Assembly: GCA_903897605.1 (NCBI GenBank)
Contig: CAIUCH010000050.1
Location: 1 to 64,000, forward strand
Direction of reading: 5' to 3'
DNA: 64,000 nt
DNA from: an uncultured Alphaproteobacteria bacterium
Lineage (GTDB): Bacteria; Pseudomonadota; Alphaproteobacteria; Micropepsales; Micropepsaceae
Shown here: positions 4,371-62,002 of the stretch, one piece after another
How positions within the stretch are numbered: position 1 is the stretch's first letter
Layout: each line of letters begins with the position of its first letter
Notes under the pieces: generated by a model
Told to the model about the DNA's origin: nothing
The model's input: only the letters and a program-made list of their open reading frames with translations
Databases searched by the model: none
Made by a program: the position numbers and the translations under genes

Positions 4371-5849
4371 CTATGCCGTTGTCAGGACCAGTACGCTCGC
4401 AATCGGATCCGGCGCCTGCCGCGGCAATTCGACGTCCAGGCCGTCGCCCCGCTTCGTCACCTTCAGTCGAGACCGCGCTTTGTCAGCCAATAAATACGCG
4501 CCCGTTACATCGCGGGATACCTTGGCCACATGAAATATGGTGGCCGGCCATTCGAACAAATGAACGTAGATCTTGTCGTGTCCGGTTGTCGATCGCCACT
4601 TCCAACTCGGCACAAATTTCGGATTGCCATTGTCGTCCTTTTCGGTGGTCGAGAACGCGCCTGCCTCGGTGCCGAACAGTGTCGGCTGCGTCGCATAAAT
4701 CGACTCGCCGTTCACCGCCAGCCATTTACCCATTTCCCGTAACCGCTCTATCTCCGGGGCGGGTACCTCGCCTGTTGGCATCGGCCCGATGTTCAGCAGA
4801 TAATTTCCTCCCTTGCTCGCGATATCGATTAAATTTCGCAGCAATATTTCCGCGCTCTTGAAGTTCGTATCATCCCGCTTGTATCCCCAGGTGTCGTTCA
4901 TTGTCATGCAGGATTCCCAATCGCGCCCCGGAAAACCCTGTGCGGGGACGTACTGCTCGGGCGTCTCCGTGTCTCCCATGTAACTTCCGCCCAGGCGGTT
5001 ATTCCAGATGAGCTTCGGATGCTCATTCAAGATCGCAACGATTTCACCCGCCAACGCCGGCGTCATGTCCTTGGTCGGTGTATCGAACCAAACGATTGCA
5101 GGATAATCGCCATAGTTCGTGAGCAGCTCCCGAAGCTGCGGAATCGCCTTTCTATGGAGATAATCCGAATAGCTGCCGTCTTGGGCCCGATCCCAGTGAT
5201 AGGTTGGCGGCATATGCTCTCTGCTTTTGAGAGCGCCGCCATATGGAAGGGCCGCTCCGCCCGGTGCCGTCCAGTCCTGGTCTTGCGAATAATAGAAGCC
5301 GAGTTTTATGCCCTGTTTCTGGCATTCTGCCGCCAATTCCCTCAGCGGGTCACGCTTGAACGGCGTCGCTTGCACAATGTTGAAGGGGTCGGCCTTCGAA
5401 TCAAACAGAGCAAACCCATCGTGATGCTTGGATGTGATCACGATGTATTTCATCCCTGCCGACTTTGCCAAGCCCACGATCTTCGCAGCGCTGAATTGCG
5501 TCGGATTGAATTTCGGCGCCAACGCCTTGTATTCCGCCACCGGAATCGAAGCGGTATTCATGATCCACTCGCCGATACCTGGCACTTTTTCACCATCCCA
5601 GCGCCCCGCCGGAATTGCGTAAAGTCCCCAATGGATGAACATGCCGAAACGCGCCTCCCGGAACCATGCCATCCGTTCACGCTTTTGGGCAGGCGTCTCG
5701 GTGTCTTGGATGGAACGCACCGGGTGCGTAGCGCTTGCCTGATAATGTTCGTCTTGCATCTGTGCCCAGGCCCGAATCGGGTCACTGATCACAGCCCCCG
5801 ATGCAGCTAGAACGCAGGCTTGAACCGCTCCCCGCCTAGATATCTTCAT
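4371..5849 (-). CDS. GH29 alpha-L-fucosidase with Tat-like leader
   Basis: MKISRRGAVQ leader; WFREARFGMFIHWGLYAIPAGRWDG, SKHHDGFALFDSKADPFN, YYSQDQDWT, PAIVWFD motifs of GH29. Confidence 0.9.
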   Translation of the reverse strand: MKISRRGAVQACVLAASGAVISDPIRAWAQMQDEHYQASATHPVRSIQDTETPAQKRERMAWFREARFGMFIHWGLYAIPAGRWDGEKVPGIGEWIMNTASIPVAEYKALAPKFNPTQFSAAKIVGLAKSAGMKYIVITSKHHDGFALFDSKADPFNIVQATPFKRDPLRELAAECQKQGIKLGFYYSQDQDWTAPGGAALPYGGALKSREHMPPTYHWDRAQDGSYSDYLHRKAIPQLRELLTNYGDYPAIVWFDTPTKDMTPALAGEIVAILNEHPKLIWNNRLGGSYMGDTETPEQYVPAQGFPGRDWESCMTMNDTWGYKRDDTNFKSAEILLRNLIDIASKGGNYLLNIGPMPTGEVPAPEIERLREMGKWLAVNGESIYATQPTLFGTEAGAFSTTEKDDNGNPKFVPSWKWRSTTGHDKIYVHLFEWPATIFHVAKVSRDVTGAYLLADKARSRLKVTKRGDGLDVELPRQAPDPIASVLVLTTA

Positions 5850-10159: not shown

Positions 10160-10257
10160 GTCGCCACTGTCTCCGCCAGATTTGTTGTGTGATAGCATAT
10201 TTAGAATTTGAAAGTGTCTGATTGAGGGGAAGCATCATGGACAGGCGGGACCTTATA

Positions 10258-11565
10258 CGGTCGATGATGGCCGGCAGCGTGGCGTTGTTGGCAAGCAAGA
10301 CGGCCAGGGCGCAGAATATCATGGCCGCTGCCGGGCGTGGCATGGCCTCGCCGAAAATCAGGGACATCACGGTGATCAACACCGCGCCGGAAGGCTCGCG
10401 CCTCTGTGTGGTGAAGATCGTGACCGATCAGGCCGGTCTTTACGGCTATGGCTGCGCCACCTTCACTCAACGTGCCGATCTGATTGCGCCTGCGGTGGAA
10501 GCCTATCTAAAGCCGCTACTGGTGGGCCGGCCGGTGGACCGCATCGAGGATATTTGGCAACTCGCTTATGACAGCTCGTATTGGAAGAACGGGCCGGTGG
10601 AGAACAATGCCATTGGCGGTGTGGACATGGCTTTGTGGGACATCAAGGGCCGCATGGCCAAGATGCCGGTCTATGAACTTTTGGGTGGCAAGGTGCGCGA
10701 AGCCGCCGATCTTTATGGACACGCCGATGGGACCGAAATCGAACAGACCATCGAAAGCGCCAAGCAATACATCGCCCAGGGCTTTCGCCATGTGCGCGTA
10801 CAAGTGGGCGTGCCAGGCATGGCCGGTTACGGATCGCCCCGCGACAATACCCGCATGCCGGCGCTCCATGATGCCCCGGTGTTCGAGCGTGAAGCCGCCA
10901 AACGCCGGGCCATGGCTCTGTTCGAGGCGGCGCGCAAGGAATTGGGCGCGGAAATCGAACTCATCCATGATGCCCATGAACGCTACACCCCCACCGAAGC
11001 GGTGCAGTTCGCCAAGGATGTCGAGAAGTTCCGGCTGTTCTTTCTGGAAGACCCGCTATCGCCGGAAGACCTGCAATGGTTCCGCAACATTCGCGCCCAG
11101 TGCACCACGCCAATCGCCATGGGCGAGCTTTTCAACAGCCCGCATGAATGGACGCCACTGATCACCGAACGGCTGATCGACTATATGCGGATGCACATTT
11201 CACAGATGGGCGGGCTGACCCCGGCACGGAAGGTGGCGGCCATGGGCGAGATCTTCAATGTCCGCACCGCTTGGCATGGGCCCGGCGATGTCTCGCCCAT
11301 TGGCCATATGTGCATGGTGCATCTGGACCTCACCTGCACCAATTTCGGCATCCAGGAATACACACCCTTCAACGCCGCCACCCAGGAGGTCTTTCACGGG
11401 GTACCGCAGATGCGGGGCGGTTATCTTTATGCCAACGAGCGACCGGGCTGGGGCATCGAGATCGATGAGGCGGTCGCGGCCAAACACCCCTTCGACCGCA
11501 GCAATTCGCTGAACGGTGGCTGGGGTGAGCTTCGCTTGCCGGATGGTCAGATCATCAAGCAGTAG
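10258..11565 (+). CDS. Enolase-superfamily dehydratase, ManD/RspA-like, with Tat-like leader (ORF opens at 10222; MDRRDLIRSMMAGS leader)
   Basis: MDRRDLIRSMMAGSVALLASKTARAQ leader; KNGPVENNAIGGVDMALWDIKGRMAKMPVYELLGGK; HDAHERYTPTEA; AWHGPGDVSPIGH; start may be 10237 (ATG of MDRRD) rather than 10258. Confidence 0.75.
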   Translation, partial: RSMMAGSVALLASKTARAQNIMAAAGRGMASPKIRDITVINTAPEGSRLCVVKIVTDQAGLYGYGCATFTQRADLIAPAVEAYLKPLLVGRPVDRIEDIWQLAYDSSYWKNGPVENNAIGGVDMALWDIKGRMAKMPVYELLGGKVREAADLYGHADGTEIEQTIESAKQYIAQGFRHVRVQVGVPGMAGYGSPRDNTRMPALHDAPVFEREAAKRRAMALFEAARKELGAEIELIHDAHERYTPTEAVQFAKDVEKFRLFFLEDPLSPEDLQWFRNIRAQCTTPIAMGELFNSPHEWTPLITERLIDYMRMHISQMGGLTPARKVAAMGEIFNVRTAWHGPGDVSPIGHMCMVHLDLTCTNFGIQEYTPFNAATQEVFHGVPQMRGGYLYANERPGWGIEIDEAVAAKHPFDRSNSLNGGWGELRLPDGQIIKQ

Positions 11566-11704
11566 GGACGGCGATTGGCCGCCACTGATTGATAGAGCCG
11601 GCCGGTACGGGTCAGGATTGCTTGGGCCTGGGCTTTGTCGCGCTCCGCAAAAGTGGCTAGGCTCCCCCCAAGAAATCGTTCGGGTGTTCGCAAAGGAGCC
11701 GTCC

Positions 11705-12052
11705 ATGTCGAAGCACATGCGCCCTCGCGGTGCCGGCCTGCTGCTGCTGGCAGGCCTTCTGGGGTCCGTGGCCGCCGGCTATGATTATGTCACCCCCGCG
11801 ACCGGCATCGATCATACCGGTGGCGTGATCCTGGTATTGGTGTCTTGCATGCTGCTGCTGCTGGCGGCGCTGGGCATCCTTGCGATGGGGCAAGGTCTGT
11901 TGGCGGGCATTCTGACGGTTCTGATTTTTCTCGACATTGTGGGCACCGGCACCGCCGCCTGGTTTCTGGAAAGCGAATTGGTGATGGCGGCAATGATGAT
12001 CGCAACGGTCGGTTTTTTTTACTGGATTACAAGCCGCAGGATGGCGCAATGA
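11705..12052 (+). CDS. Small four-helix membrane protein, resembles the detached N-terminal membrane domain of membrane-bound quinoprotein glucose dehydrogenase
   Basis: 116-aa hydrophobic product, about 4 predicted TM segments; stop overlaps start of downstream PQQ dehydrogenase (ATGA at 12049-12052). Confidence 0.65.
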   Translation: MSKHMRPRGAGLLLLAGLLGSVAAGYDYVTPATGIDHTGGVILVLVSCMLLLLAALGILAMGQGLLAGILTVLIFLDIVGTGTAAWFLESELVMAAMMIATVGFFYWITSRRMAQ

Positions 12053-13959
12053 AAAAACGGCCCTTTATATTCGCAGCGACGGCGTTGATTGGTGCCGCAT
12101 TACTGTTGCCGGTTCGAGGGATTGCCGGTGACGAAGACTGGTCCGACTTCAATGGCAATGCCAAAGCGCAAAAATATTCCACCGCTGCCCAGATTACGCC
12201 CGACAATGTGAAGACCCTTGCGGTCGCGTGGAGCGTCCATACCGGCGATCTGTCCGAGGGCGGCACAGGCATTGGTCCCAAGACAGCGTGGCAATCGACG
12301 CCGTTATTCGTCAACAATATGGTCTATTTCTCGACGCCCTTTTATCGCATTTTTGCCGTTGCACCCGATACGGGGAAGGTCAAGTGGGTATATGCCGCCA
12401 AGACCATCTCCAACGATCCGAAGTCGAAATTCCACGGTCGAAATCGTGGCATCGCCTATTGGGCGGCTGCCAATCCCATTGCCGGTCAGCCCTGCCAGAA
12501 GATCCTTTATATCGGCACGGTCGAGGGGCATCTGCATGCGATTGACGCCGACACCGGTCAGCTTTGCCAGAGTTTCGGTGATCACGGCATCCTCAATGTC
12601 GATCAGTGGAACACGATAAATCACAAATTTCCGTTCGAACTGAATCAGTCGGTTTCGATCTACAAAGACACGATCATTATCGGTTGGGCCGGGGTTGACT
12701 GGACCTGGGAAGATTCTCCCCCCGGCTCAGTCTTCGGTGTCGATGCCCGCACCGGCCAAAAGAAGTGGGAATTCCAGACCGAGCCGGAAAATATGCGCAG
12801 CAAGATCGGCACCACCAACGTTTGGGCGGCGATGTCGGTGGATGTGCAAAACGGCCTGGTTTATCTGCCGGTCAGTTCGCCGGAGAATAATTTCTGGGGC
12901 GGCAACCGCAAGCAGGAGATGCCCTATGCAACTTCGGTGACAGCCCTGCATGCTGAAACCGGGGAAGTGGCCTGGGCGCGTCAGCTCGTTCATCACGATA
13001 TCTGGGATATCGACACCAATGCGGCACCGACCTTGGTGGATATCCAGAAAGACGGCAAACAAATCCCGGCCCTGGTGCAAACCACCAAGCAGGGCTTTGT
13101 CTTTGTATTGAACCGCCTGACCGGCGAGCCGATCTATCCCCTTGAGGAGCGGCCGGTGCCCAAATCCGATGTGCCAGGCGAGCTGGCCGCACTCACACAG
13201 CCGGTACCGACGGTGATGCAACCGACCACGCCATGGAATTTCCCCGGCCTCTCGACCATTGCCGACATCGCCAGCGGCGGCCAATGCAGCAGGGACTATG
13301 CGAGCTATCGCGACGAGGGAAAATTCACACCGCCATCGCTTAAGGGCACCGTCACGGAGACGCCTACCACCGGCGGCATGGAGTGGGGCGGCGGCGCGGT
13401 TGATCCCACCACACAGACCTATGTCGTCAATAGTTCCAATGTCATTCAAATCTACAAATTGATCCCGCGCCATGAATTCGAGGCGCTCTACGCCAAGGTT
13501 GGCGCCGCCGCTGGCGCGACCGAATATGAATCGCCCTACGCCGCGCAAATTTCCAGTTTTCTCAACCTTTGGGGCATGCCGTGTTGGAAGCCACCTTATG
13601 GCACCTTGTCATCCTATGACCTGAAGACCGGAAAATTGCTGTGGCGTCATCCTTTCGGCCAAGTGCAGCAATGGGGCTTCTACATGCCTGAAAGCTGGGG
13701 TTCGGTGACGATCGGTGGACCGGCGATCACCAAGACGGGATTGATCTTCATTGGCGCTTCCATGGATAGTCGCGTGCGCGCCATCGATCTGAAATCTGGT
13801 GACGTTTTGTGGAAGCACCAAGTCGATGCGCCGGCGGTTTCGACGCCGGCGGTTTATACCTATAGGGGCAAGGAATATGTCGTATTCGCCGCGGGCGGCA
13901 ACGGCATCCTGTCGCCGCGGATAGGCGATCAGTTGGTCGCTTTCGCATTACCGAATTGA
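12049..13959 (+). CDS. PQQ-dependent membrane-type aldose/polyol dehydrogenase (glucose/quinate dehydrogenase family)
   Basis: DEDWSDFNGNAKAQKYSTAAQITPDNVKTLAVAWSVHTGD, repeated propeller motifs (DARTGQKKWEFQ, DLKTGKLLWRHPF, DLKSGDVLWKHQVDAPAVSTPAVYTYRGKEYVVFAAGGNG). Confidence 0.88.
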   Translation: MKKRPFIFAATALIGAALLLPVRGIAGDEDWSDFNGNAKAQKYSTAAQITPDNVKTLAVAWSVHTGDLSEGGTGIGPKTAWQSTPLFVNNMVYFSTPFYRIFAVAPDTGKVKWVYAAKTISNDPKSKFHGRNRGIAYWAAANPIAGQPCQKILYIGTVEGHLHAIDADTGQLCQSFGDHGILNVDQWNTINHKFPFELNQSVSIYKDTIIIGWAGVDWTWEDSPPGSVFGVDARTGQKKWEFQTEPENMRSKIGTTNVWAAMSVDVQNGLVYLPVSSPENNFWGGNRKQEMPYATSVTALHAETGEVAWARQLVHHDIWDIDTNAAPTLVDIQKDGKQIPALVQTTKQGFVFVLNRLTGEPIYPLEERPVPKSDVPGELAALTQPVPTVMQPTTPWNFPGLSTIADIASGGQCSRDYASYRDEGKFTPPSLKGTVTETPTTGGMEWGGGAVDPTTQTYVVNSSNVIQIYKLIPRHEFEALYAKVGAAAGATEYESPYAAQISSFLNLWGMPCWKPPYGTLSSYDLKTGKLLWRHPFGQVQQWGFYMPESWGSVTIGGPAITKTGLIFIGASMDSRVRAIDLKSGDVLWKHQVDAPAVSTPAVYTYRGKEYVVFAAGGNGILSPRIGDQLVAFALPN

Positions 13960-14158
13960 AGAGCAGCCAGAGACAATGTTCGCATGAAGGCCGATTGCAG
14001 ATCACAAAACGGCAATTTCAGCATGGCGCCAGCCTATCCTCGGACACTTCACAGGCAAGTTTCCCCGCTTCCGTTTCGACGCTGTGCACCTCCTCGTGAC
14101 GACCCTGGGCAGGCTGATCGAATATGAAGTGAGCAAGCACACAAAAGGGAAAATATCG

Positions 14159-15364
14159 ATGCCTCGCACAGCTTCTTGCCGTCTCAGCCTTTTGGCGGCC
14201 TTTATATTGCTTTCGATCATGCCAACCAGTTTGGCGTTTGCGGCAACCGAGCGCGCCTATATCGGCACTTACACCGCCAAGCCGGGATCGACCCGGTCAC
14301 AAAATCACGGCGAAGGCATTTACCTGGTGCAGTTCGATACCGCCACAGGGGCGCTTTCCAACCCCAGACTGGTGGCGAAAACCGCGTCGCCGTCCTGGAT
14401 CGCGCTGTCGCCCAACGGCAAGATTTTATACGCCGGCAACGAGGTATCCAATTTCAACGGTATCGAGAATGGGTCGGTGACCGCCTTCGCGGTCAACAAG
14501 GACGACGGCGATCTGACCTTGCTCAACGCGGTTGGCTCTGGCGGCGCCGGTCCGGCCTACATCGCCGTGGATCCGTCTGGCAAATACGTGCTGTCGGCGA
14601 ATTATGCCGGCGGCAGTCTGGCCGTGCTGCCAATCAAGCCTGACGGCAGCTTGAGTGAGGCCAGCGATGTAATCCATCCGTCAGGCCCGCTGAATCCTTC
14701 CCAAGCGGTCGACGATCCACCGGGCAATTTTTCGCCCAGCAATCATCAAGGCTCTCATGTCCATATGGTGGGTTTCGATCCTCAAGGGCGCTTCGTGATC
14801 GCCGACGATGCGGGGCTGGATCAGATCCTGGTGTGGAAACTCGACCTTGCGAATGGCAAGCTCGCGCCGATTTCCGTTACCACGGCGCTACCAGGTTCGG
14901 CGCCGCGCCATTTCGTGTTCGATCCGAAGGGGCAAATCTTTTACCAGCTCCAAGAACAGGACTCGATGCTGACGGTGTATGATTTCGATCCCGTGAGCGG
15001 GCGCTTCAACCAGCGGCAGAGCCTTTCGGCACTTCCCCCCGGTTTTGCTGGCAGCAGTCTTGCCTCTGAACTTCTGCTCTCCCGGGATGGGCGGCATCTC
15101 TATTTTGGCAACCGGGTGCACGATTCCATCGCTGTATTCTCTGCCGATCGCGGAGGGCATGTGACGCGGCTGGCCAATGTTCCGACCGAGGGCGATCAAC
15201 CGCGTAGCCTGGCACTCGACCCCACCGGTCATTATCTGTTGTCGTTGAATCAGGGGGGTGACTCGGTAACCAGCTTCCACATCGATCCAAAGACCGGGTT
15301 GTTGCGTTTTACCGGCCATTTCCTGGCATTGGGCAGTCCGGCGTCGATGGTATTTCTACCCTAG
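14159..15364 (+). CDS. Exported lactonase family protein (YbhE/YkgB-type 7-bladed propeller)
   Basis: Signal peptide MPRTASCRLSLLAAFILLSIMPTSLAFA; AYIGTYTAKPGSTRS..GEGIYLVQFD, SPNGKILYAGNEVSNF, GSHVHMVGFDPQGRFV. Confidence 0.85.
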   Translation: MPRTASCRLSLLAAFILLSIMPTSLAFAATERAYIGTYTAKPGSTRSQNHGEGIYLVQFDTATGALSNPRLVAKTASPSWIALSPNGKILYAGNEVSNFNGIENGSVTAFAVNKDDGDLTLLNAVGSGGAGPAYIAVDPSGKYVLSANYAGGSLAVLPIKPDGSLSEASDVIHPSGPLNPSQAVDDPPGNFSPSNHQGSHVHMVGFDPQGRFVIADDAGLDQILVWKLDLANGKLAPISVTTALPGSAPRHFVFDPKGQIFYQLQEQDSMLTVYDFDPVSGRFNQRQSLSALPPGFAGSSLASELLLSRDGRHLYFGNRVHDSIAVFSADRGGHVTRLANVPTEGDQPRSLALDPTGHYLLSLNQGGDSVTSFHIDPKTGLLRFTGHFLALGSPASMVFLP

Positions 15365-15450
15365 TTCGCTGCTGAGAAATGTATGATTGTAATCCTCCCG
15401 AGCCTTGGCTGGGAGGCGTCGCTGACATATTCGAGGAAGCAGAGGTGTCC

Positions 15451-16710
15451 ATGCTGATGAAAATGAACCGCCGCAAAATGCTTGCGGGTCTCGCCGGAAC
15501 GGTCGGCGTCAGCGCACTGTGGACGCCGCCCGATGCCTTCGCACTGGGCCTGCCCAAGGATAGGATCAAGCGCATCCGCTATTATATTACGCCCACCGAC
15601 GCGGCCGGGCGTGCCAATCTCCACCAACCGACATTCAATCAGTCCACCAACATCGTGATCATCGAGACGGCGGGCGGGCTTACCGGCATCGGCGAGGGCG
15701 GCGACCCGGATACGATGGAGCAATGCGCCGGAATGCTGATCGGGGAAGATCCGTTTCGCATCGAGCATCTGTGGCAGGAAATGTTTCGCGGCTATTTCTA
15801 TCCGGCGGGGCGCGAGAAAATTCATTCCCTGGGCGCACTCGATCTCGCGCTATGGGACCTCAAAGGCAAGGCGCTGGGCGTGCCGGTGTGGCAATTGTTG
15901 GGTGGCAAGAGCCGCGACTTTGTCGAATGCTACGCCACGGGCTATCCCACCCCGCCGGGCGGCACGCTGGAGGACGCGGCGCGCGCTTGCATCGCCGAAG
16001 GCTTCCGCGCCTACCGCCATGCCATCGACCGGGGCGCCGAGATGGACCGGTTCGCCTCGGTGGAGGGGGTCTATGAAGATTGCGTGCTGCTGCGCAAGGG
16101 CGCGGGCAAGGATGGCGGTTTCGCCCTCGATTTTCACGCCCAACTCGACATGCCCGACGCGATTACGCTCTGTACGCTGCTCGAACCACTGCACCCTTAT
16201 TTCTGCGAGGACCTGATCCGCAGCGAAAATCCGGATGTCTACAAGACCCTCCGGCCCCGCGTGAAAGTTCCGATCGCGGTGGGCGAACAGTTTGGCTCCA
16301 AGTGGGACGTCAACGGCCTGATCGAGAACCAGTTGATCGACTATGCCCGGGTCACTGTTCCCAATGTCGGTGGAATTACCGAATATATGAAGATCCAGGC
16401 GCTGGCCGAGACACATTACGTCGGCATGATTCCGCATTTCACCGGCCCGATTGGCGAGACGGCGCTGGTCCATTGTCTCACCGCGTCCTCCGTGGTGGCC
16501 GTGATGGAGATGACAGGCGCGGGCCAGCGCGCCTGGCCCTATCTGCCTCAGGCCTATGATTTTCATAACGGCAAGCTGTGGCCTAACGAGCGGCCTGGCC
16601 TGGGCGTCACGCTCGATACCAGCAAACTGAAGCTGGTGGGCGACTATACCGAACATTACACGCCTATCCCGCTCAACCACCGCCCGGACGGCACCTACAC
16701 CAACTGGTAG
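15451..16710 (+). CDS. Enolase-superfamily sugar-acid dehydratase (galactonate dehydratase-like) with Tat-like leader
   Basis: MKMNRRKMLAGLAGTVGVSALWTPPDAFA; GALDLALWDLKGKALGVPVWQLLGGK; DFHAQLDMPDA; PIAVGEQFGSKWD; HFTGPIGETALVH. Confidence 0.8.
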   Translation: MLMKMNRRKMLAGLAGTVGVSALWTPPDAFALGLPKDRIKRIRYYITPTDAAGRANLHQPTFNQSTNIVIIETAGGLTGIGEGGDPDTMEQCAGMLIGEDPFRIEHLWQEMFRGYFYPAGREKIHSLGALDLALWDLKGKALGVPVWQLLGGKSRDFVECYATGYPTPPGGTLEDAARACIAEGFRAYRHAIDRGAEMDRFASVEGVYEDCVLLRKGAGKDGGFALDFHAQLDMPDAITLCTLLEPLHPYFCEDLIRSENPDVYKTLRPRVKVPIAVGEQFGSKWDVNGLIENQLIDYARVTVPNVGGITEYMKIQALAETHYVGMIPHFTGPIGETALVHCLTASSVVAVMEMTGAGQRAWPYLPQAYDFHNGKLWPNERPGLGVTLDTSKLKLVGDYTEHYTPIPLNHRPDGTYTNW

Positions 16711-16874
16711 TCGATTGCGGAATTGATCGGCTTGCTGGGATCGAAATGGCCTCGTAGCTTGCTCGGGTAGAAATATATTGCAGCCGGTTCCCCGAAAATT
16801 CTGCTACTTTCCCGGCTGCGGTTCAACCGCGCCGGCACGGCTGTGCTGAATTCCAAAAAGATCGGGAGACGCGC

Positions 16875-18392
16875 ATGAACATCCAGACGACTGATAGTTC
16901 GACGCTTGAACGGGTACCGGCCGCATTACGGGAATGGTTGGCCAAGCCGCGTCCCATGCTGATCAACGGCAAGTGGGTGCAAGCAAAATCCGGCAAGGTG
17001 TTTGACGTCAACGATCCCGCTACCGAAATGCGCCTAACGACGGTGGCGGAAGGCGATGCCGCCGATATCGATGCTGCCGTGCGCGCGGCGCGCGCCGCGC
17101 TAGATGGCCCCTGGGGCCGCATGTCGCCATCGGTTCGCGGTCGTATCATCCACCGTATCGGCGATCTCATCCTGGAGCATCTGGACGAACTGGCGCAGCT
17201 GGAGAGCCTGGACAACGGCAAGCCGTTCAGCGTGGCGCGCGTTGCCGACGTGCCGCTGTCGGCGGATATGTTCCACTATATGTCGGGCTGGGCGACTAAG
17301 ATCGAAGGCAAGTATATTCCGATCTCCAATCTTGCCGCGCCGGGGCAATATTTGTCCTTTACCCGGCCTGAGCCGATCGGCGTTGTCGGCCAAATCATTC
17401 CATGGAATTTTCCTCTGCTGATGGCTGCCTGGAAGTTGGCGCCAGCTTTGGCGACCGGCTGTACCGTGGTGCTGAAAGTCGCGGAAGAAACGCCGCTTTC
17501 GGCGCTGCGGCTTGGCGAGTTGTTGATGGAGGCGGGCCTTCCCGACGGCGTGGTCAATATCGTTCCGGGCTTCGGCGATACCGCCGGCGCGGCACTGGCG
17601 GCCCACCCAGGCGTGGACAAGGTGGCCTTCACCGGCTCCACGGAAGTGGGACGGCTTATCGTTCAGGCAGCTTCGCGCGATCTGAAGAAAGTCAGCCTCG
17701 AACTGGGCGGCAAGTCGCCCAATATCGTGCTGGAAGACGCCGACATTGACGCCACCATCGCTGGCGCCTCAGCCGGAATTTTCTTCAACCATGGCCAGTG
17801 CTGCAATGCGGGGTCACGGCTATTCATTCAGGAAAAGATATTCGACAAGGTGGCCGCGGGCATCGCTGCCAACGCGGAAAAAATCAAGCTTGGCGTTGGC
17901 ATGGATCCGCTCACCGAAATGGGGCCGCTGGTGTCCGAGGTCCAATATGGCCGTGTCACCGGCTACCTCAAATCAGGGATGGAAGAAGGCGCTCGCGCCC
18001 TGACCGGCGGCGCGGCGGCGGGCAATCGCGGCTATTTCGTCAAGCCCACGGTGCTGGTCGATACCAAGCCGGCCATGAAGGTGGTGCGGGAGGAAATTTT
18101 CGGGCCGGTGCTGGTGGCAATCCCCTTCAAGGAAGCCGACGACAGTCTGATTGCCGCCGCCAACGACACGATCTACGGCCTTGCCGCCGGAGTTTGGACT
18201 CGCGACGGCGCCAAAGCGCAGCAGATCGCCAACCGGCTGAAGGCCGGAACAGTCTGGATCAACTGCTACCATGTGTTCGACTCGGCGCTGCCGTTTGGCG
18301 GCTACAAGCAATCGGGCTGGGGTCGGGAAATGGGCCAGGCGGTGCTGTCGAACTATCTGGAAACCAAGGCGATCACATCCCGAATTCACTAG
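16875..18392 (+). CDS. NAD(P)-dependent aldehyde dehydrogenase
   Basis: IIPWNFPLLMAAWKLAPALATG, VAFTGSTEVGRLI, LELGGKSPNIVLEDAD, FFNHGQCCNAGSR, EEIFGPVL. Confidence 0.93.
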   Translation: MNIQTTDSSTLERVPAALREWLAKPRPMLINGKWVQAKSGKVFDVNDPATEMRLTTVAEGDAADIDAAVRAARAALDGPWGRMSPSVRGRIIHRIGDLILEHLDELAQLESLDNGKPFSVARVADVPLSADMFHYMSGWATKIEGKYIPISNLAAPGQYLSFTRPEPIGVVGQIIPWNFPLLMAAWKLAPALATGCTVVLKVAEETPLSALRLGELLMEAGLPDGVVNIVPGFGDTAGAALAAHPGVDKVAFTGSTEVGRLIVQAASRDLKKVSLELGGKSPNIVLEDADIDATIAGASAGIFFNHGQCCNAGSRLFIQEKIFDKVAAGIAANAEKIKLGVGMDPLTEMGPLVSEVQYGRVTGYLKSGMEEGARALTGGAAAGNRGYFVKPTVLVDTKPAMKVVREEIFGPVLVAIPFKEADDSLIAAANDTIYGLAAGVWTRDGAKAQQIANRLKAGTVWINCYHVFDSALPFGGYKQSGWGREMGQAVLSNYLETKAITSRIH

Positions 18393-18686
18393 TCGCGCCA
18401 GTTGTTCAGTGCGGGCGAAGGCGAATTCCCAGTCGCGCGTCAGGATTCCAGCACGGCATCGTCTAAATGGCTGGGCGCGGCTGGCACCACCCCCTTGCGA
18501 GCCGGGTCGAGGCTGGGCGGGTTCCCATGTCAATCGACGACCGGCGAGGAGACCTAGTCTCCGTTCGCGTTCCGGCAACGGATCCGGGATCTCCGAATAA
18601 GTCATTGAAGGTCATACGAAATATCCGCATGGGGGCAATTTCGGGCGGATACGGCATGTTAAATTTTCGCCTGTAAATTGGGCAAT

Positions 18687-20369
18687 ATGAGCGTTCGGAC
18701 AAATTGGGTCGGCAACGCGCGATCCGGGAAGAAAACCGCCTTTGCGGGTAGTTCGGCGGTATTGGCTCTGACCATACCGGTTGTCGCAATTCTCGGCGCC
18801 TGCTTTTTCGTTTGCTATTCGATACTTCGATCATCGGCGTATCACGCTGATGCTGCTGCGCTCGAGGCCGAACAGCGCATCGCTAGAGCCGCTGTTCTTT
18901 TCACCACTGCCCCCGTCGTTAAGAGTGATGGTGATTATGCCTACTGGGATGAATTATTCTTGCGGGCGAAAAATCCTCTAGATCCCAAATGGGCCGACGC
19001 TCATCTCGGCCCATATCAAGAGAATTTAAATGGCATTACCGGTTCAGCCGTCGTCACGCAAACCGGTGCACTTCAATATCTTTATCTTTCGCAGCGATCG
19101 GGCCCGCGCAACCTGACGCCGAAAGAGTTGCGCTTATTCACTTCGCTCACCCAGAGCGCGGTGGCTCACAATGGCCGAGTTGGTCAAAGCTCACAGAGTG
19201 GATTTATCTTATTCCGCAACAAGCCGATTTTTCTCGCAGTTGCTCCCGTAAGAGCATCGGGCCTCGAAGGCGGTCCCAAGGGGGAAAAACCTTTTGCAGC
19301 ACTAATTTTCTTTATCGATTTTGACTCGGAGCTTCTCTCCAGCCTCACGAAAAACTTTAATCTCGGCGACGCCCACGTCGTTTCTGCTCGATCTGGCAGC
19401 ATCACATTACCGAATTTCCCCGGGGTGCCCGTCGATCTGGGGCTGCAATGGAACAAGAGGATTGCCTCGCAGGACATCATCGGCGAGAGCCTCCCCATGC
19501 TGAAGGCATTGGCCGTCGTTTCCTTGCTCTTGATCGCAGCAGTTGCCGGCGCCTGGTCATGGATTCTGATGCGGGTTCGGAAAATTGAAGCGGCAGCCCT
19601 GACCGAAAGAACCATGATTGCCGAACAGACTGCTCAGGCGAAGTCATTATTCATCGCCAATATGAGCCATGAGCTTCGAACGCCTCTAAATGCAATCATT
19701 GGATTCTCCGAAATGCTTACCCACCGGCTATTCGGGCCTCTTGGACATCGCAAATACGCGGAATATGCAGAAGATATATTGGCCAGTGGGCGGCATTTAC
19801 TCGCCATCGTCAATGATATCTTGCTCATGTCGAAGCTCGACGCAAAAAAACACGAGTTCGAAATTGGGGCGGTGGCGATTGACCCTGTGATTCAGGAAGC
19901 AATAACGCTTGTATCCGGCAATGCCATGAAAAAAAGCATTGTAATTGATTTCAGGAATCTGAATGGGAGCTTCATCATCTATGCTGATCGTCAGGCCTTG
20001 AAGCAGATTCTCATTAACTTGCTTAGCAATGCCGTCAAATTCTCGATCGCTGAGGGTCACGTCAGTGTAACGACGAGAGAAGTAGCCGATCAGGGCGTTG
20101 TCGAATTGCGCGTTTCAGATCGCGGCTGCGGAATGCCCAAAGATCTCCTACAAAAACTGGGGCAGCCATTCACCCAGGCTACCCATGCCTATATCAGAGA
20201 CAATCAAGGTACCGGCTTGGGACTTTCCATATCTTTTGCGCTTGCTGCCGGATTTGGGGGCACCTTGGAGTTCGAGAGTGCCGAGGGCGCGGGAACAATT
20301 GCAATATTGCGTCTCAGATCCGTGCAGCAGAATGTCTTCTCTGGTCGACTGGAAGATCACGCGGCCTGA
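18687..20369 (+). CDS. Membrane sensor histidine kinase with CHASE4-like periplasmic domain
   Basis: Two TM segments; DYAYWDELFLRAKNP (CHASE4-like); IANMSHELRTPLNAIIGFSEML (HisKA); ILINLLSNAVKFS, GTGLGLSIS (HATPase_c). Confidence 0.85.
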   Translation: MSVRTNWVGNARSGKKTAFAGSSAVLALTIPVVAILGACFFVCYSILRSSAYHADAAALEAEQRIARAAVLFTTAPVVKSDGDYAYWDELFLRAKNPLDPKWADAHLGPYQENLNGITGSAVVTQTGALQYLYLSQRSGPRNLTPKELRLFTSLTQSAVAHNGRVGQSSQSGFILFRNKPIFLAVAPVRASGLEGGPKGEKPFAALIFFIDFDSELLSSLTKNFNLGDAHVVSARSGSITLPNFPGVPVDLGLQWNKRIASQDIIGESLPMLKALAVVSLLLIAAVAGAWSWILMRVRKIEAAALTERTMIAEQTAQAKSLFIANMSHELRTPLNAIIGFSEMLTHRLFGPLGHRKYAEYAEDILASGRHLLAIVNDILLMSKLDAKKHEFEIGAVAIDPVIQEAITLVSGNAMKKSIVIDFRNLNGSFIIYADRQALKQILINLLSNAVKFSIAEGHVSVTTREVADQGVVELRVSDRGCGMPKDLLQKLGQPFTQATHAYIRDNQGTGLGLSISFALAAGFGGTLEFESAEGAGTIAILRLRSVQQNVFSGRLEDHAA

Positions 20370-20645
20370 ATACCGGAACCTCCGGCTTGCAAACGAAAGT
20401 GGATCCATTTTCCACGTGGCGAATATCGCCGGCGTGGGCACCGATCCGGGCGGTTTGTGCGATGCTTTGGCCGTATTCGCCTTGAAATGACGCGCAGGGA
20501 CTAGCCGGCATCCTTGAAACCCGCACAGGAGAGTTATAACCTTGTGCCAAAGAAAAGCCTGCCTCGATGCGCGACATGATTCGCCCATCCTGGCGTCATT
20601 TCCCGTCGCGATGAAACCAGAACAATCATTCAGGGAGAACGCCGA

Positions 20646-21806
20646 ATGACACATTTGATCCGTGAAGACGTGAAGGACGATCTGCTCAGCCGCGGCTATT
20701 CGCGCCGCCAGATGCTGCGTACCGCCATGATGTTCAGCGGTGCGGCCGCTGCACTCAGCCTGAACACCGAACTGGCGTTCGCCCAAGAGGATGAGGCGGC
20801 CAAGAATATGGTCCGCATCGGCTCCAACGAATGCTGGACCGGCCCGATGGCGCCAGGCCTACAGGCGGGCATGGCGGCATTTGCCAACGCCAACCGTTAT
20901 TCGCCCAATGGCGAGGTCGCGCAACTGACCAAGACCATCGCCGGAATCGAAAACGTGCCGGAGGATCATATCGCCACCTATCCCGGCTCCGGCGGGATCC
21001 TGGCGCGCACCCTGGTCGCTTTCTGCTCGCCCACCAAGGGGCTTGTGCAGGCCGACCCCACCTATGACAATCCCACCAGGGTCGCCAAATTCCTCAAGAC
21101 GCCGATCTCCAATGTGCCCCTGACTTCCGACTATCGCCATGACGTCAAGGCGATGTTGGCGGCCAATCCCGATGCGGGCGTCTATTATGTGGTCAACCCC
21201 AACAACCCGACCGGCACCATGACGCCGATGGCGGAGATCGAATGGCTGGTGGACAACAAGCCTGCCGGTGCGGTGGTGTTGATCGACGAAGCCTATATCC
21301 ACTGGACCAAGGACTATCCCAACAACACTGCCACCCATCTGGTCAGGGCGGGCAAGGAAGTCATCATCACGCGCACCTTCTCCAAGGTGTTCGGCATGGC
21401 CGGCGCGCGAGTGGGCTTCCTGATGGCCTCGCCGGACGTGCTCAAGAAGGTCGGGCTCTATGAAACCGACCGGCCTTCGATCCCGACCACGGCCTGCGCC
21501 ACCGCCAGCCTGACGGCCACCGGGTTGATCAACGCCCGCCGCAAGGAACTGTGGGAGAACCGGGCCATGACGGTGGAGTATCTCACCAAGCGCGGCCTCA
21601 AGGTGATCGGTCCCAGTGAAGGCAACATGATCATGGTGGACTGGAAGACCAAGTCGGCCAAGGATATGGGGATCATCTACAAGGCCCAGGGTGTCCAGAT
21701 ATCTTCACCGCGCTGGCCAAGTTGGCCCACGGTCGGCCGCATCTCCATCGGCAGCAAGACCGATATGGAAGCCTTCTGCAACGCCACGGGCAAAATCCTG
21801 ACCTGA
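20646..21806 (+). CDS. Class I/II PLP aminotransferase, HisC-like, with Tat leader
   Basis: YSRRQMLRTAMMFSGAAAALSLNTELAFAQ; NPNNPTGTMTPMAEI, IDEAYIHWTKDY, TRTFSKVFGMAGARVGF (Schiff-base Lys). Confidence 0.85.
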   Translation: MTHLIREDVKDDLLSRGYSRRQMLRTAMMFSGAAAALSLNTELAFAQEDEAAKNMVRIGSNECWTGPMAPGLQAGMAAFANANRYSPNGEVAQLTKTIAGIENVPEDHIATYPGSGGILARTLVAFCSPTKGLVQADPTYDNPTRVAKFLKTPISNVPLTSDYRHDVKAMLAANPDAGVYYVVNPNNPTGTMTPMAEIEWLVDNKPAGAVVLIDEAYIHWTKDYPNNTATHLVRAGKEVIITRTFSKVFGMAGARVGFLMASPDVLKKVGLYETDRPSIPTTACATASLTATGLINARRKELWENRAMTVEYLTKRGLKVIGPSEGNMIMVDWKTKSAKDMGIIYKAQGVQISSPRWPSWPTVGRISIGSKTDMEAFCNATGKILT

Positions 21807-36428: not shown

Positions 36429-38117
36429 ATGATTTCCAGGCGCTCATTTCTTGGACAAACCGTGGCGACCGGCATGTCGGCCGCCACGGTACCGGCTTCC
36501 GGTGCCATGGCCGAGGTGAAGAACCGTCCGCGGCGCGATTCCAGCTTCGTTGAGATACTCCGGATGCCCGACTCGGTGACCGCATTCTCCGGATTGGATA
36601 CACACCTGCCGCTCCAAATGGATGGACGCAGCTTTGCCGCCCGCGATATTATGGTCCACGTGGATGTGCAATCCGCGGAATTGAACCTCCGCCTGACGGC
36701 GCCCGCCACAGAGCTGACGCATATCCATGTGCGCTGGCTGGCCGCCATACATCCGAAAATCATTTGCCTTGGCGATCATTGGGAGCGCAGTTACGGCGAT
36801 CTTGCCTGGCGCGGCATGGTGCCGGACAGAGCGATGCCGTGGTACTTCGCCACTCATGACGGCAGCGCGGCGCATGCCTATGGCGTGAAGACGGGCGCAG
36901 GCGCCATGTGCTTCTGGCAGATCGATCCCGAGGGGATTTCGGTCTGGCTCGACGTCCGCAATGGCGGGGACGGCGTGCTTTTGGGCAGTCGCGAACTGCA
37001 TGCCGCCACCGTGGTGACGCGCCGTGGCGCGGCGAACGAATCGCCGATGGTTGCGCTACGCTCCTTTTGTGGGCGGATGTCGCCCGCGCCGCGGCTGCTC
37101 AAGACGGCGGTCTATGGGGTCAACGACTGGTATTACGCCTATGGCAAAAACAACCAGAATATGTTGCTGCGTATGGCCGACTTGGTGGCGGAGCTCGCGC
37201 CCCCGGCCGGTCCCAGGCCCTATGCGGTTGTCGACGAGGGATGGAAGGATGGCTCCGCCACCTTCCCCAGCATGGCCAGCTACGCCGCGCAGGTGAAACA
37301 GAGAGGCGTGCATCCCGGTATATGGATCCGTCCGCTCAGGGCCATGCCCGGCGCCGATCCCAAGCTGTTGCTGCCGAATAAGCGCTTTGGCGAACGCGCC
37401 AGCCGCTACCAGGAGCTGGCTTTTGATCCCACCATTGCCGAGGCGCTGGCGCTCGTCACCCGCCAGGCAAAAGACACAGCCGATTGGGGCTTCGAGCTGG
37501 TGAAGCACGACTATTCCACCTACGACTTGCTCGGCCAGTGGGGCTTCGAAATGGGCGCTACGCCGACCTTGCCTGGCTGGCACTTCAATGACCGCACCCG
37601 CACCAATGCCGAGATCATTCTCGACCTTTACAACGCGCTGCGCACCGCCGTCGGCGATCGGACGGCGATTTTGGGTTGCAACACCGTGGGTCACCTCGGT
37701 GCGGGTGTTTTTGAAATGCAGCGCACCGGCGACGATGTCGGCGGGATGTGGGATCGCACCCGGCGCATGGGCGTGAACACCCTGGCTTACCGGCTGCCGC
37801 AGCACGGCACCTTCTTCCATCTGGACGCCGATTGCGTGGCGATCACCAAAGCGGCGCCGTGGGAGATGACCCGCCAGTGGCTGGATGTGGTGGCGCGCAG
37901 CAGGACGACTTTGTTCATTTCTCCGGAGGAAGGCGAAGTAGGGGCCGAACAGCGCGCCGCCCTGCGCCAAGCCTTTGCCGAAGTCACCGCGCCTGGACCT
38001 GGCGCCGAGCCGGCCGATTTCGTCCACGACACGACGCCCGAAGACTGGAAGCAGAGCTCCGGCCTGAAGCACTATTCCTGGTCTGGCGCCGCCGGGGCCT
38101 CGCCCTTTCCAGTCTGA
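36429..38117 (+). CDS. GH36/GH27-like glycoside hydrolase with Tat leader
   Basis: MISRRSFLGQTVATGMSAATVPASGAMA; GVNDWYYAYGKNN, VVDEGWKDG, GVHPGIWIRPL, FELVKHDYSTYDLLG, TAILGCNTVGHLGAG. Confidence 0.75.
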   Translation: MISRRSFLGQTVATGMSAATVPASGAMAEVKNRPRRDSSFVEILRMPDSVTAFSGLDTHLPLQMDGRSFAARDIMVHVDVQSAELNLRLTAPATELTHIHVRWLAAIHPKIICLGDHWERSYGDLAWRGMVPDRAMPWYFATHDGSAAHAYGVKTGAGAMCFWQIDPEGISVWLDVRNGGDGVLLGSRELHAATVVTRRGAANESPMVALRSFCGRMSPAPRLLKTAVYGVNDWYYAYGKNNQNMLLRMADLVAELAPPAGPRPYAVVDEGWKDGSATFPSMASYAAQVKQRGVHPGIWIRPLRAMPGADPKLLLPNKRFGERASRYQELAFDPTIAEALALVTRQAKDTADWGFELVKHDYSTYDLLGQWGFEMGATPTLPGWHFNDRTRTNAEIILDLYNALRTAVGDRTAILGCNTVGHLGAGVFEMQRTGDDVGGMWDRTRRMGVNTLAYRLPQHGTFFHLDADCVAITKAAPWEMTRQWLDVVARSRTTLFISPEEGEVGAEQRAALRQAFAEVTAPGPGAEPADFVHDTTPEDWKQSSGLKHYSWSGAAGASPFPV

Positions 38118-38436: not shown

Positions 38437-39714
38437 ATGACCTCAAATGCCGCCCCTCCAATCGTTGAAAAGCGCTATCTGCTGGCATTTCTTCTCGTCG
38501 CCAGCCTCTTCTTCTCATGGGCGCTGGCGGCCGCTTTAAATGATGTCCTTATCCGGCAATTCCAGAAGGCGCTGAACCTCAATCGAGGAGAAGCGAGCTT
38601 CATCCAACTCGCCTTCTATATCGGGTATTTCTGTGCCGCCCTGCCCGCTGGGCTCCTCATCCGGCGGATTGGCTACAAATCCGTGATGATAGTCGGATTG
38701 ATCCTCTATGCTTGCGGAGCATTCCTGTTCTATCCGGCTGCCGAAATTCGCGTCTATGGCGTGTTTCTTGCCGCGCTCTACACAATCGCATTTGGTTTGG
38801 CGTTTCTTGAAACGTCCGCGAATCCCTATGTTTCAATTCTGGGCGATCCCAAGACAGGGGCGGCGCGGCTAAACCTTGCGCAATCATTTTATGGAATAGG
38901 CGCGATCCTTGGTCCCTTTATCGGGGGCAAATTCATTTTCTCCGGGGTGGAACATTCCAAAGCCCAACTCTCCGCCATGTCGCCTGCCGCCCTCCTGGCG
39001 TACCGGGCCGTGGAAGCCAAGGCGGTGCAGATGCCCTATCTGGTCGTGGGGTTGTCGATGTGTGCTCTGGCCATCGTCATTGGGCTTACCCGCTTTCCAT
39101 CGATTGCGACGCCGCAAAAGACGATCGCATTGCAAGCGGACCGGGTATTTTCAGTTTTGCGCCATGGCCGCTTGAGGCAGGCGATTGTCGCGCAATTCTT
39201 CTATGTCGGAGCCCAAGTCGGGATTTGGAGTTTTTTCATCGATTTTACCAAGGACGCCATGCCGTCGCTTTCGGAGCGCACTGCTGCCTACCTGCTCTCG
39301 GGCAGTTTGGGCCTTCTGATGATCGGCAGGGCGAGTGGCGCATTTATTCAGAGATATGTAAAACCGGCCAAACTTCTTGCAATTTATGCGGCAATTAATA
39401 TCGGTCTTTGTCTTGCGGCGTCATTCGCGGCCGGGCCTGCCGCGGTGGGCGCGCTCTGGTTCAGCAGTTTCTTCATGTCGATCATGTTTCCGACCATATT
39501 CGTCCTCGGTCTTGATGGCCTGGGAGAGCGGAAGGAACTTGGGTCGTCTTTCCTGATCATGTCGATCATCGGCGGGGCCGTGATCCCGCCCACCATCGGC
39601 ATCATTGCCGATCGTTTCACGGGTATTCATCTTGCGATGGTCGTGCCCGCGCTATGCTTTGGGATTTGCCTGACATTTGCATTCAAGGTGCTTCGCGACA
39701 AGGAGCCATCATGA
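38437..39714 (+). CDS. fucP: MFS transporter, L-fucose permease-like
   Basis: 12 TM; SLFFSWALAAALNDVLIRQFQKALNLNRGEASFIQLAFYIGYFCAALPAGLLIRRIGYK; LETSANPYVSILG. Confidence 0.82.
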   Translation: MTSNAAPPIVEKRYLLAFLLVASLFFSWALAAALNDVLIRQFQKALNLNRGEASFIQLAFYIGYFCAALPAGLLIRRIGYKSVMIVGLILYACGAFLFYPAAEIRVYGVFLAALYTIAFGLAFLETSANPYVSILGDPKTGAARLNLAQSFYGIGAILGPFIGGKFIFSGVEHSKAQLSAMSPAALLAYRAVEAKAVQMPYLVVGLSMCALAIVIGLTRFPSIATPQKTIALQADRVFSVLRHGRLRQAIVAQFFYVGAQVGIWSFFIDFTKDAMPSLSERTAAYLLSGSLGLLMIGRASGAFIQRYVKPAKLLAIYAAINIGLCLAASFAAGPAAVGALWFSSFFMSIMFPTIFVLGLDGLGERKELGSSFLIMSIIGGAVIPPTIGIIADRFTGIHLAMVVPALCFGICLTFAFKVLRDKEPS

Positions 39715-40055
39715 ATTCCCGCAGACTTTGCCTTGCGTTGGATTTGGTCGATGACGCCGAGCTCATTGCGCAATATGAAAAATGGCATGCCCCCGGAGCG
39801 GTCTGGCCGGAAATACTGGCGGATATAAGGGCGCGGGGAATACTCAACATGGAAATATGGCGAATTGGCACGCGCATGGCGATGATCATGGATGTTGATG
39901 AAGGCTATCCCCGCTTTGAGGCGAATGCTCCGCGTGTCAAGGAATGGGAAGTCTTGATGTCGAAATTTCAGCAACCACTTCCCAACACCAATCCCGCGGA
40001 AAAATGGGCGCCCATGACCCGGATTTTCGCGCTCAACGATAGCGCCGAACCATAA
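39711..40055 (+). CDS. L-rhamnose/L-fucose mutarotase (RhaM-family)
   Basis: LALDLVDDAELIAQYEKWHAPGAVWPEILADIRARGILNMEIWRIGTRMAMIMDVDEGY; overlaps fucP stop (ATGA). Confidence 0.85.
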   Translation: MNSRRLCLALDLVDDAELIAQYEKWHAPGAVWPEILADIRARGILNMEIWRIGTRMAMIMDVDEGYPRFEANAPRVKEWEVLMSKFQQPLPNTNPAEKWAPMTRIFALNDSAEP

Positions 40056-40151
40056 TGGCTCTTATCCGGGGCGGTCCGCAGGTCGTGGCTTGCCAAAAAT
40101 TGCTCACCCGGTTCATATCTCGCCCAGTGTTTTTAGTGGAAAGGCGCGCCT

Positions 40152-41462
40152 TTGGCCCTAACCATCGAGCATATTGAAGCGTTTGACATCCGCTTTCCGA
40201 CGTCGCGTTGGCTGGACGGATCCGACGCCATGAATCCGGACCCCGATTATTCGGCCGCTTATGTGGTGATTCACACCGGCGATCCCAAGCTGGCGGGCCA
40301 TGGCTATACTTTCACCATCGGACGGGGGAACGAACTTTGCGTCGCTGCGATCCGGACCATTGCGCCCCTGGTCGAAGGCCGCGCCCTTAGCGACATATGT
40401 GCCGACATGGGGATGTTTTGGCGCAGCCTCGCGGGTGACAGCCAGCTTCGCTGGCTAGGCCCCGAAAAAGGGGTGATTCATTTGGCCCTTGCCGCCATCA
40501 TAAATGCGGTTTGGGACCTTTGGGCCAAACAGCAAAATAAGCCGGTCTGGCAGCTGATCGCCGACCTTCCGGTCGATGATCTGGTCGGGGTGGTCGATTA
40601 TCGGCACATCACGGACGCGCTGACCCCGTCCGAGGCCAAGGATATCGTGGCAAAAGCCCGTCCGAGCGGAGCTGCCCTCAGGCCGCAACTCGAATCCGCC
40701 GGCTATCCAGCCTACACCACGTCCGCCGGGTGGCTAGGATATCCCGACGAAAAGATTCGAGAGCTATGCGCCCGGGCGATCTCTGATGGCTGGAATGCCA
40801 TCAAAATCAAAGTCGGCCGCGATCCAGAAGACGATTCGCGCCGATGCGCAATCGTTCGCGACGCGATCGGCGAGCGCCTTATGATGATCGATGCCAACCA
40901 GGTGTGGGAGATCGAGGACGCCATCAAGAATGTCCGGGACTTGGCGAAGTACAGGCCATATTGGATCGAAGAACCGGTAAGTCCCGATGATATTCTCGGT
41001 CACGCCAGGGTCCGGCGCGCGGTATCCCCGGTTCGTGTCGCGACGGGGGAGCACGCCCATAACCGGATCATGTTCAAGCAATTTCTCCAGGCCGAGGCCG
41101 TCGACATTGTACAGTTCGACTGCTGCCGCCTGGGCGGCGTCAACGAAGCGATCGCGGTTTTTCTGCTGGCCGCCAAGTTTCAAATTCCCGTTTGCCAGCA
41201 CGCCGGCGGTGTTGGGCTTTGCGAGGTCGGTCAACACCTTGCCTTTGCCGACGCCCTCACGCTCAGTGGAAGCATCGAAAACCGAATGCTGGAGCATGCC
41301 GGCCATCTGCATGAACATTTCCTCGATCCGATCAGGATCAAGGACGGCAGGTACCAAATACCGACAGCGCCCGGGTTCAGCACGCAACTGAACTCCGACA
41401 GCCTGCGGGATCATGCATTTCCAGAAGGGGCAGTTTGGAAAACGGTGCATCGCGACCGTTGA
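40152..41462 (+). CDS. L-fuconate dehydratase (enolase superfamily)
   Basis: FDIRFPTSRWLDGSDAMNPDPDYSAAYVVIHTG; WNAIKIKVGRDPEDDSRR; MMIDANQVWEIEDAI; CQHAGGVGLCEVGQHLAF. Confidence 0.92.
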   Translation: MALTIEHIEAFDIRFPTSRWLDGSDAMNPDPDYSAAYVVIHTGDPKLAGHGYTFTIGRGNELCVAAIRTIAPLVEGRALSDICADMGMFWRSLAGDSQLRWLGPEKGVIHLALAAIINAVWDLWAKQQNKPVWQLIADLPVDDLVGVVDYRHITDALTPSEAKDIVAKARPSGAALRPQLESAGYPAYTTSAGWLGYPDEKIRELCARAISDGWNAIKIKVGRDPEDDSRRCAIVRDAIGERLMMIDANQVWEIEDAIKNVRDLAKYRPYWIEEPVSPDDILGHARVRRAVSPVRVATGEHAHNRIMFKQFLQAEAVDIVQFDCCRLGGVNEAIAVFLLAAKFQIPVCQHAGGVGLCEVGQHLAFADALTLSGSIENRMLEHAGHLHEHFLDPIRIKDGRYQIPTAPGFSTQLNSDSLRDHAFPEGAVWKTVHRDR

Positions 41463-41483
41463 TGCTTTCAATTGGGTCCGGAA

Positions 41484-42455
41484 ATGCCGCACGCGAAAAC
41501 CTGGAACGCAATTATCCCCAAGCTAGCTTATGGTGCAGCCCATCTCGGCAATCTCTATACGCCCATCACCGATGCCATCGCGGACGATATTTTGGATGCG
41601 GCCACTGATGGAAGTGCCTTTGTCGATACCGCGCCATATTATGGCCATGGCCTGAGCGAATTGCGGATCGGCAATTACCTCAAGACGCACCAAACCCGCC
41701 TGCCCATGATCTCCACGAAGGTGGGTCGCCGTCTCGACCATTGCGACCACCCGTCGGATTTTGGCTTTGTAAACCCGGCGCCTTTTGAGCCTGTGTTTGA
41801 TTATTCCGCGGCCGGAATTTGCGAAACCTTTCAAGGCAGTCTGAATCGCCTCGGCTTGCCTCGCGTCGACTTGCTGTTATTGCACGATATCGGCGCGATG
41901 ACGCACGGTTCATCTCACCCTGACCAGATGAGGCTCGTCGAACAAGAAGCCTGGCCGGCGATGCAAGAGATCAAAGGCAGCCATCGCGCAGACGCCATCG
42001 GGATTGGAGTCAATGAATGCGAGGTCGTCCTGGAATGTCTCGACCGGGGCCTCACGCCTGACGCCATCATGCTGGCTGGCCGGCATACGCTTCTGGATGC
42101 GAGCGCGGAAAAATCCGGGGTGATCGCGCGGTGCAAGTCTCTCGGCATTCGCCTGCTTATTGCCGCGCCGTTCAACTCCGGCATTTTGGCGGGTGGAAAT
42201 CAATTCAACTATGCAGCGGCACCCGAACCGATTCTCGCGGTTGCCAGGAAATTGTCAGAGATCTGCGCGGATTTCCGTGCAGAGCTTCCCGCGGCGGCCC
42301 TGCAATTTCCACTGCGCCAGCCGGGTGTGTCCATGGTGGTTGCCGGTGCAAAGAGCCGTGACGAATTATGCCAGCAAAGGATTTGGATGAATTCTTCCAT
42401 TCCCGAGGACTGCTGGACCGCCATCGATGCGATTCGCAACCGATACCTCTCATGA
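41484..42455 (+). CDS. Aldo/keto reductase, L-fucose (D-threo-aldose) 1-dehydrogenase-like
   Basis: KLAYGAAHLGNLYTPITDAIADDILDAA, FVDTAPYYGHGLSELRIG; position inside fucose operon. Confidence 0.82.
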   Translation: MPHAKTWNAIIPKLAYGAAHLGNLYTPITDAIADDILDAATDGSAFVDTAPYYGHGLSELRIGNYLKTHQTRLPMISTKVGRRLDHCDHPSDFGFVNPAPFEPVFDYSAAGICETFQGSLNRLGLPRVDLLLLHDIGAMTHGSSHPDQMRLVEQEAWPAMQEIKGSHRADAIGIGVNECEVVLECLDRGLTPDAIMLAGRHTLLDASAEKSGVIARCKSLGIRLLIAAPFNSGILAGGNQFNYAAAPEPILAVARKLSEICADFRAELPAAALQFPLRQPGVSMVVAGAKSRDELCQQRIWMNSSIPEDCWTAIDAIRNRYLS

Positions 42456-60496: not shown

Positions 60497-60522
60497 GTCT
60501 CAACTCCCTTGCGCAGGTCGCA

Positions 60523-61944: not shown

Positions 61945-62002
61945 GTCCCCTCGGAATTTTATATTTTTGCCCGTAATGGCGGAACGCCATCACGTCCGTG
62001 CT

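Follow-up and report, generated by a model that had tools for sequence, protein, structure and literature searches.

The window analysed here is a 64,000-nucleotide stretch of DNA (G000:C50:1-64000) from a source genome, G000, of 2.79 Mb in 60 contigs, whose closest named relatives are alphaproteobacterial MAGs. Its plus strand carries a codirectional run of genes with intergenic gaps of 86-199 bp, except for an overlapping PQQ dehydrogenase pair. The run opens with P0001 (10237-11565, +), a ManD-like enolase-superfamily dehydratase with MR_MLE domains and a twin-arginine leader. This is followed by P0002 (11705-12052, +), a small SldB-like membrane subunit, and P0003 (12049-13959, +), a PQQ-type dehydrogenase that has a Sec-type leader, lacks a membrane domain of its own and matches TIGR03074 from profile position 154; the start of P0003 overlaps the end of P0002. 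Downstream lie P0004 (14159-15364, +), a predicted exported 7-bladed lactonase (PF10282) with a Sec-type leader, and P0005 (15451-16710, +), a second enolase-superfamily dehydratase with MR_MLE domains and a twin-arginine leader that falls between ManD and DgoD. A leaderless, cytosolic aldehyde dehydrogenase (ALDH; 16875-18392, +) comes next, with copies at 87-88% identity in the L101 and L127 loci. A HisC-like aminotransferase (20646-21806) bears a YSRRQML Tat leader; it scores just below the PRK09105 family cut-off and is related to pyoverdine PtaA. All of these genes are where an earlier note on this DNA had placed them, with the exported lactonase, the PQQ pair, the trailing ALDH and the twin-arginine leaders as it had described.

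On the minus strand, 39-41 kb from P0005, are genes for two cytosolic enzymes: a dgoK-like 2-keto-3-deoxygalactonokinase (56073-57026), which has no NCBIfam match and is named via its pairing with dgoA, and a dgoA-like 2-dehydro-3-deoxy-6-phosphogalactonate aldolase (55451-56083), above cut-off for NF006600. An SSS sodium/solute symporter adjoins them (53864-55432, -) and is a candidate importer. Elsewhere in the window, a Tat-leader alpha-L-fucosidase (4371-5849) and a cluster with a leaderless fuconate-type dehydratase and MFS, AKR and amidohydrolase genes (38437-43294) probably make up a cytosolic L-fucose pathway. A xylose cluster (59363-64000 and L132:2-1380), whose enzymes include a dehydratase of the IlvD type and a D-xylose 1-dehydrogenase above cut-off, probably represents an oxidative (Weimberg-type) pathway. 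The 562-aa product of 36429-38117 has a Tat leader and no Pfam match.

The leader of P0001 is MDRRDLIRSMMAGSVALLASKTARAQ and that of P0005 is MLMKMNRRKMLAGLAGTVGVSALWTPPDAFA. After their twin-arginine motifs, DRRDL and NRRKM, come a segment of moderate hydrophobicity and an end of the AxA type. Leader hydrophobicity is 1.47 and 1.57 for the two dehydratases compared with 2.51 and 2.18 for the run's two Sec-type leaders, a difference that matches expectation for Tat. TatC is encoded in the genome (G000:C15:78962-79618). Translation starts downstream of the leaders were also considered. The best start of P0001, at 10237, has GAGG at -13, and the P0005 start at 15451 has GAGG at -9. Among genus orthologues of both families, whose genes were called with a codon-usage caller, most have an SD-like site before the start directly ahead of the arginine pair, and none has a convincing SD at an internal start. 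In most P0005 members, no start downstream of the leader is usable. Close to its mature N-terminus, P0001 has an internal ATG without an SD; L103 (GAPSPK) and Acidobacteriota (LSSP) do not conserve this methionine.

The leaders are retained well beyond the window, in 10/10 aligned genus orthologues of P0001 and in 13/13 genus-level P0005 copies. Scanning the P0005 alignment against GTDB returned 80 loci, 79 of them with a judgeable N-terminus; 73 of the 79 relatives, from Alphaproteobacteria, Acidobacteriota, Verrucomicrobiota and Bacteroidota, have the arginine-pair leader. The six leaderless relatives come from Chloroflexota, Armatimonadota, a record labelled Gracilibacteria and Opitutaceae, and leader state clusters on the family tree, where two changes of state suffice. 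As background, an arginine pair falls within the first 12 residues in 62 of 527 genes of the genus-level loci, the dehydratases counted in. P0001 relatives occur in 22 of 23 searched genomes bearing P0005 relatives, 13 of the 22 having one at 63-69% identity with the leader, and Tat-leader P0001 orthologues are also found in Acidobacteriota. Outside these, a leader was sought in Caballeronia and Variovorax homologues (45%), and none was found. Within G000, three leaderless paralogues, a fuconate dehydratase (40152-41462), a rhamnonate dehydratase (L134) and a DgoD-like protein (L135), serve as an internal control for leader presence. Judged from the aligned sequences, the leader is a family trait of both P0001 and P0005, common to several phyla, and both dehydratases are very likely exported.

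Both enzymes also look catalytically intact. With active-site roles assigned by alignment to ManD, the invariant residues are D227/E253/E279 (Mg ligands) and H229/H329 in P0005, and D245/E271/E297 (Mg ligands) and H247/H347 in P0001. The D/E/E ligands and the catalytic His/Glu/Arg are unchanged in 41 P0005-family sequences, and the same metal ligands and catalytic residues are unchanged in all complete aligned P0001 orthologues. The predicted model of P0005 has a pLDDT of 88, with ManD and a DgoD-like enzyme among its best PDB matches. The ManD subgroup of D-mannonate/D-gluconate dehydratases (2qjj, 3thu, 3t6c) has the fold, Mg ligands and catalytic His and Arg in common with these proteins, and P0001 is about 45% identical to its leaderless members. 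Unlike ManD, P0001 carries a twin-arginine leader, and it scores 415 bits against an equivalog cut-off of 550 (NF043051) and 402 against 430 (PRK15072). P0005, for which PRK14017 is the joint best family match, reaches 201 bits against cut-offs of 550 for ManD and 311 for DgoD (NF010624). Because both dehydratases fall short of the curated specificity cut-offs, their substrates are inferred.

For P0005, the genomic neighbourhood points to a galactonate-type acid. Nine genus loci (L108-L113, L115-L117) have dgoK and dgoA next to its orthologue, and in L120 the three genes lie within 4 kb. At a threshold of at least 50% identity, dgoK is present in 12/12 genomes with P0005 and in 1/49 others (Fisher p = 7e-12, a value that ignores kinship and is indicative only); since the genus genomes are related, this co-occurrence is not independent evidence. 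A nearby MFS protein is closest to the D-galactonate-transporter family in most dgoK/dgoA loci, below cut-off. In Sphingobium ummariense RL-3, only 15 bp separate the P0005 orthologue (L201:7941-9179) from the TonB receptor gene that precedes it, and a GH27 alpha-galactosidase, a GH95 protein and a galactonate-family MFS are encoded nearby. Together, the dgoK/dgoA linkage, the MFS and the Sphingobium locus favour a galactonate-type substrate, and P0005 is likely an exported galactonate-type dehydratase. This association, which the earlier note missed, is a stronger functional link than the run itself. The De Ley-Doudoroff enzymes DgoD, DgoK and DgoA are the nearest parallel; unlike DgoD, P0005 has a Tat leader, so its dehydration step would sit outside the cytoplasm.

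The link has a boundary. Outside the genus, dgoK is lacking in 20 of 22 searched genomes with P0005 relatives, acidobacterial ones included, and dgoK was rejected as a general P0005 partner. In those acidobacterial genomes, the 2-keto-3-deoxygalactonate product or its fate may therefore differ. P0005 relatives outside Alphaproteobacteria have no stable neighbours. Two other candidates in the window were set aside: the IlvD/Edd-type protein at 62003-63772 is unlikely to be a galactonate dehydratase feeding DgoK in G000, because it lies in the xylose cluster with a D-xylose 1-dehydrogenase above cut-off, and the Gfo/Idh protein at 57126-58055, considered as a galactose dehydrogenase, obtained no family assignment. 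Six genus loci have a gene for an exported beta-propeller 18-45 bp upstream of the P0005 orthologue; in the window, the exported propeller found 86 bp upstream is another one, P0004, the PF10282 lactonase. The 280-aa exported propeller paired with P0005 orthologues (L116:8357-9199 and equivalents) has a weak DUF6923 match and is a candidate new lactonase; it could not be assigned as a known lactonase, having no confident solved relative.

The substrate of P0001 is likely mannonate or gluconate. In L099, genes for another PQQ enzyme and an NHL/SMP-30-like propeller come after its orthologue; in L100 and L101, a cytosolic UxuA, a UxuA-like protein with a Tat leader and a sugar-acid MFS are encoded close to the orthologue. 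These UxuA-like proteins (PF03786; L100:3682-4866, L101:10005-11189), with their twin-arginine leaders, are possibly a third exported sugar-acid dehydratase family. Acidobacterial P0001 orthologues (L219, L220, L222-L230) recur beside two membrane-protein genes that appear ccmB/ccmC-like by eye.

Known SldB/SldA-type enzymes oxidise polyols plus other substrates, and this breadth makes an aldose a guess as the substrate of P0002/P0003, in which a small membrane subunit gene likewise lies directly before the catalytic gene. The pair is kept in 5 genus relatives and also on Pantoea and Pseudooceanicola plasmids. In Gluconobacter, whose membrane PQQ polyol dehydrogenase has the same arrangement, sldB is required for SldA activity, going by the title of a study cited in PMC8102297. 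Unlike that system, the host genome of P0002/P0003 yielded no PqqE, nor did the searched P0005-bearing relatives, so an outside supply of PQQ would be needed. Most P0005-bearing genomes encode 4-13 PQQ-type dehydrogenases each without PqqE, and these enzymes may be users of environmental PQQ or PQQ-free relatives. The PF10282 propeller and export signal of P0004 are shared with the periplasmic gluconolactonase PpgL (6igb), of which P0004, a predicted lactonase, is a distant relative.

Oxidation of quinate and the action of 3-dehydroquinate dehydratase are both periplasmic in Gluconobacter. That route is a precedent in that oxidation is followed by dehydration of the acid, by a type II dehydroquinate dehydratase (PMC8102297); its enzyme family and substrate chemistry are unrelated to those of P0001 and P0005. 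In the open-access papers searched, no earlier description of Tat-exported or periplasmic enolase-superfamily dehydratases was found.

The reading we somewhat favour is that P0001 and P0005 represent two Tat-exported families of sugar-acid dehydratases, with galactonate dehydrated by P0005 outside the cytoplasm and the product imported for DgoK and DgoA. The enzymes would fold with Mg2+ in the cytoplasm, be exported by Tat and remove water from aldonates on the periplasmic side. Galactonate would be provided by exported oxidation and lactone-opening enzymes, and P0005 would most likely convert it to 2-keto-3-deoxygalactonate. After import, DgoK would phosphorylate this acid, and DgoA would split the product into pyruvate and glyceraldehyde-3-phosphate. 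Besides the lack of dgoK in most genomes outside the genus and the scores below the ManD and DgoD cut-offs, two points count against this reading: galactonate itself might be taken up by the neighbouring MFS family, in which case a cytosolic dehydratase would be needed, and G000 encodes the leaderless DgoD-like protein.

Exported dehydratases could instead process other acids, for instance aldonic acids derived from uronates or bound to oligosaccharides, and not the free galactonate or gluconate that sugar oxidation yields. The UxuA, Tat-leader UxuA-like and MFS genes near P0001 orthologues in L100 and L101 would suit this, as would the acidobacterial genomes lacking dgoK, the unstable surroundings of P0005 relatives outside Alphaproteobacteria and the scores below known specificity cut-offs; the nine genus loci with dgoK/dgoA and the galactosidase locus in Sphingobium speak for galactonate, and we consider the other acids a serious but unlikely alternative. 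Less probable still is that the run itself is the unit, as the earlier note proposed, for a complete periplasmic route from aldose through lactone and aldonate to 2-keto-3-deoxyaldonate. The close codirectional spacing, the propellers directly before P0005 here and in six relatives, and the PQQ enzyme and propeller after the P0001 orthologue in L099 speak for this route. However, its gene order is absent from every relative examined: the PQQ pair, the lactonase and the orthologues of both dehydratases lie at separate places, which marks the run as a local arrangement and led us to reject it as a conserved operon unit. Moreover, the SldBA-like PQQ enzyme has candidate substrates not confined to aldoses, and PqqE was not found in G000. 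Of that proposal, the very likely exported, intact-looking dehydratases stand, but the full route is not supported.

We give very little credence to the idea that the leaders are non-functional and that the enzymes serve an ordinary cytosolic De Ley-Doudoroff pathway in G000, even though the cytosolic location of DgoK and DgoA and the internal ATG of P0001 would fit it and, to our knowledge, every characterised relative of the two dehydratases is cytosolic. That ATG is neither conserved nor preceded by an SD, the arginine pair is retained across phyla, and tatC is present.

Export signals shared with relatives in other phyla suggest that part of sugar breakdown proceeds outside the inner membrane in these bacteria. 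On a broader proposal, to which we assign a chance slightly short of even, two old, cross-phylum Tat-exported families relocate an Entner-Doudoroff/De Ley-Doudoroff type of dehydration into the periplasm, and cells take up 2-keto-3-deoxy acids in place of sugars or aldonates. If so, a catabolic step regarded as cytosolic would run outside the inner membrane in Alphaproteobacteria and Acidobacteriota from soil and fresh water, and genome-based prediction of sugar pathways and transporters would change for these groups. The absence of a cytosolic dehydratase would no longer mean absence of the pathway, and one would expect there to be transporters for 2-keto-3-deoxy acids. There would also be a testable explanation of why these groups export so many sugar enzymes.
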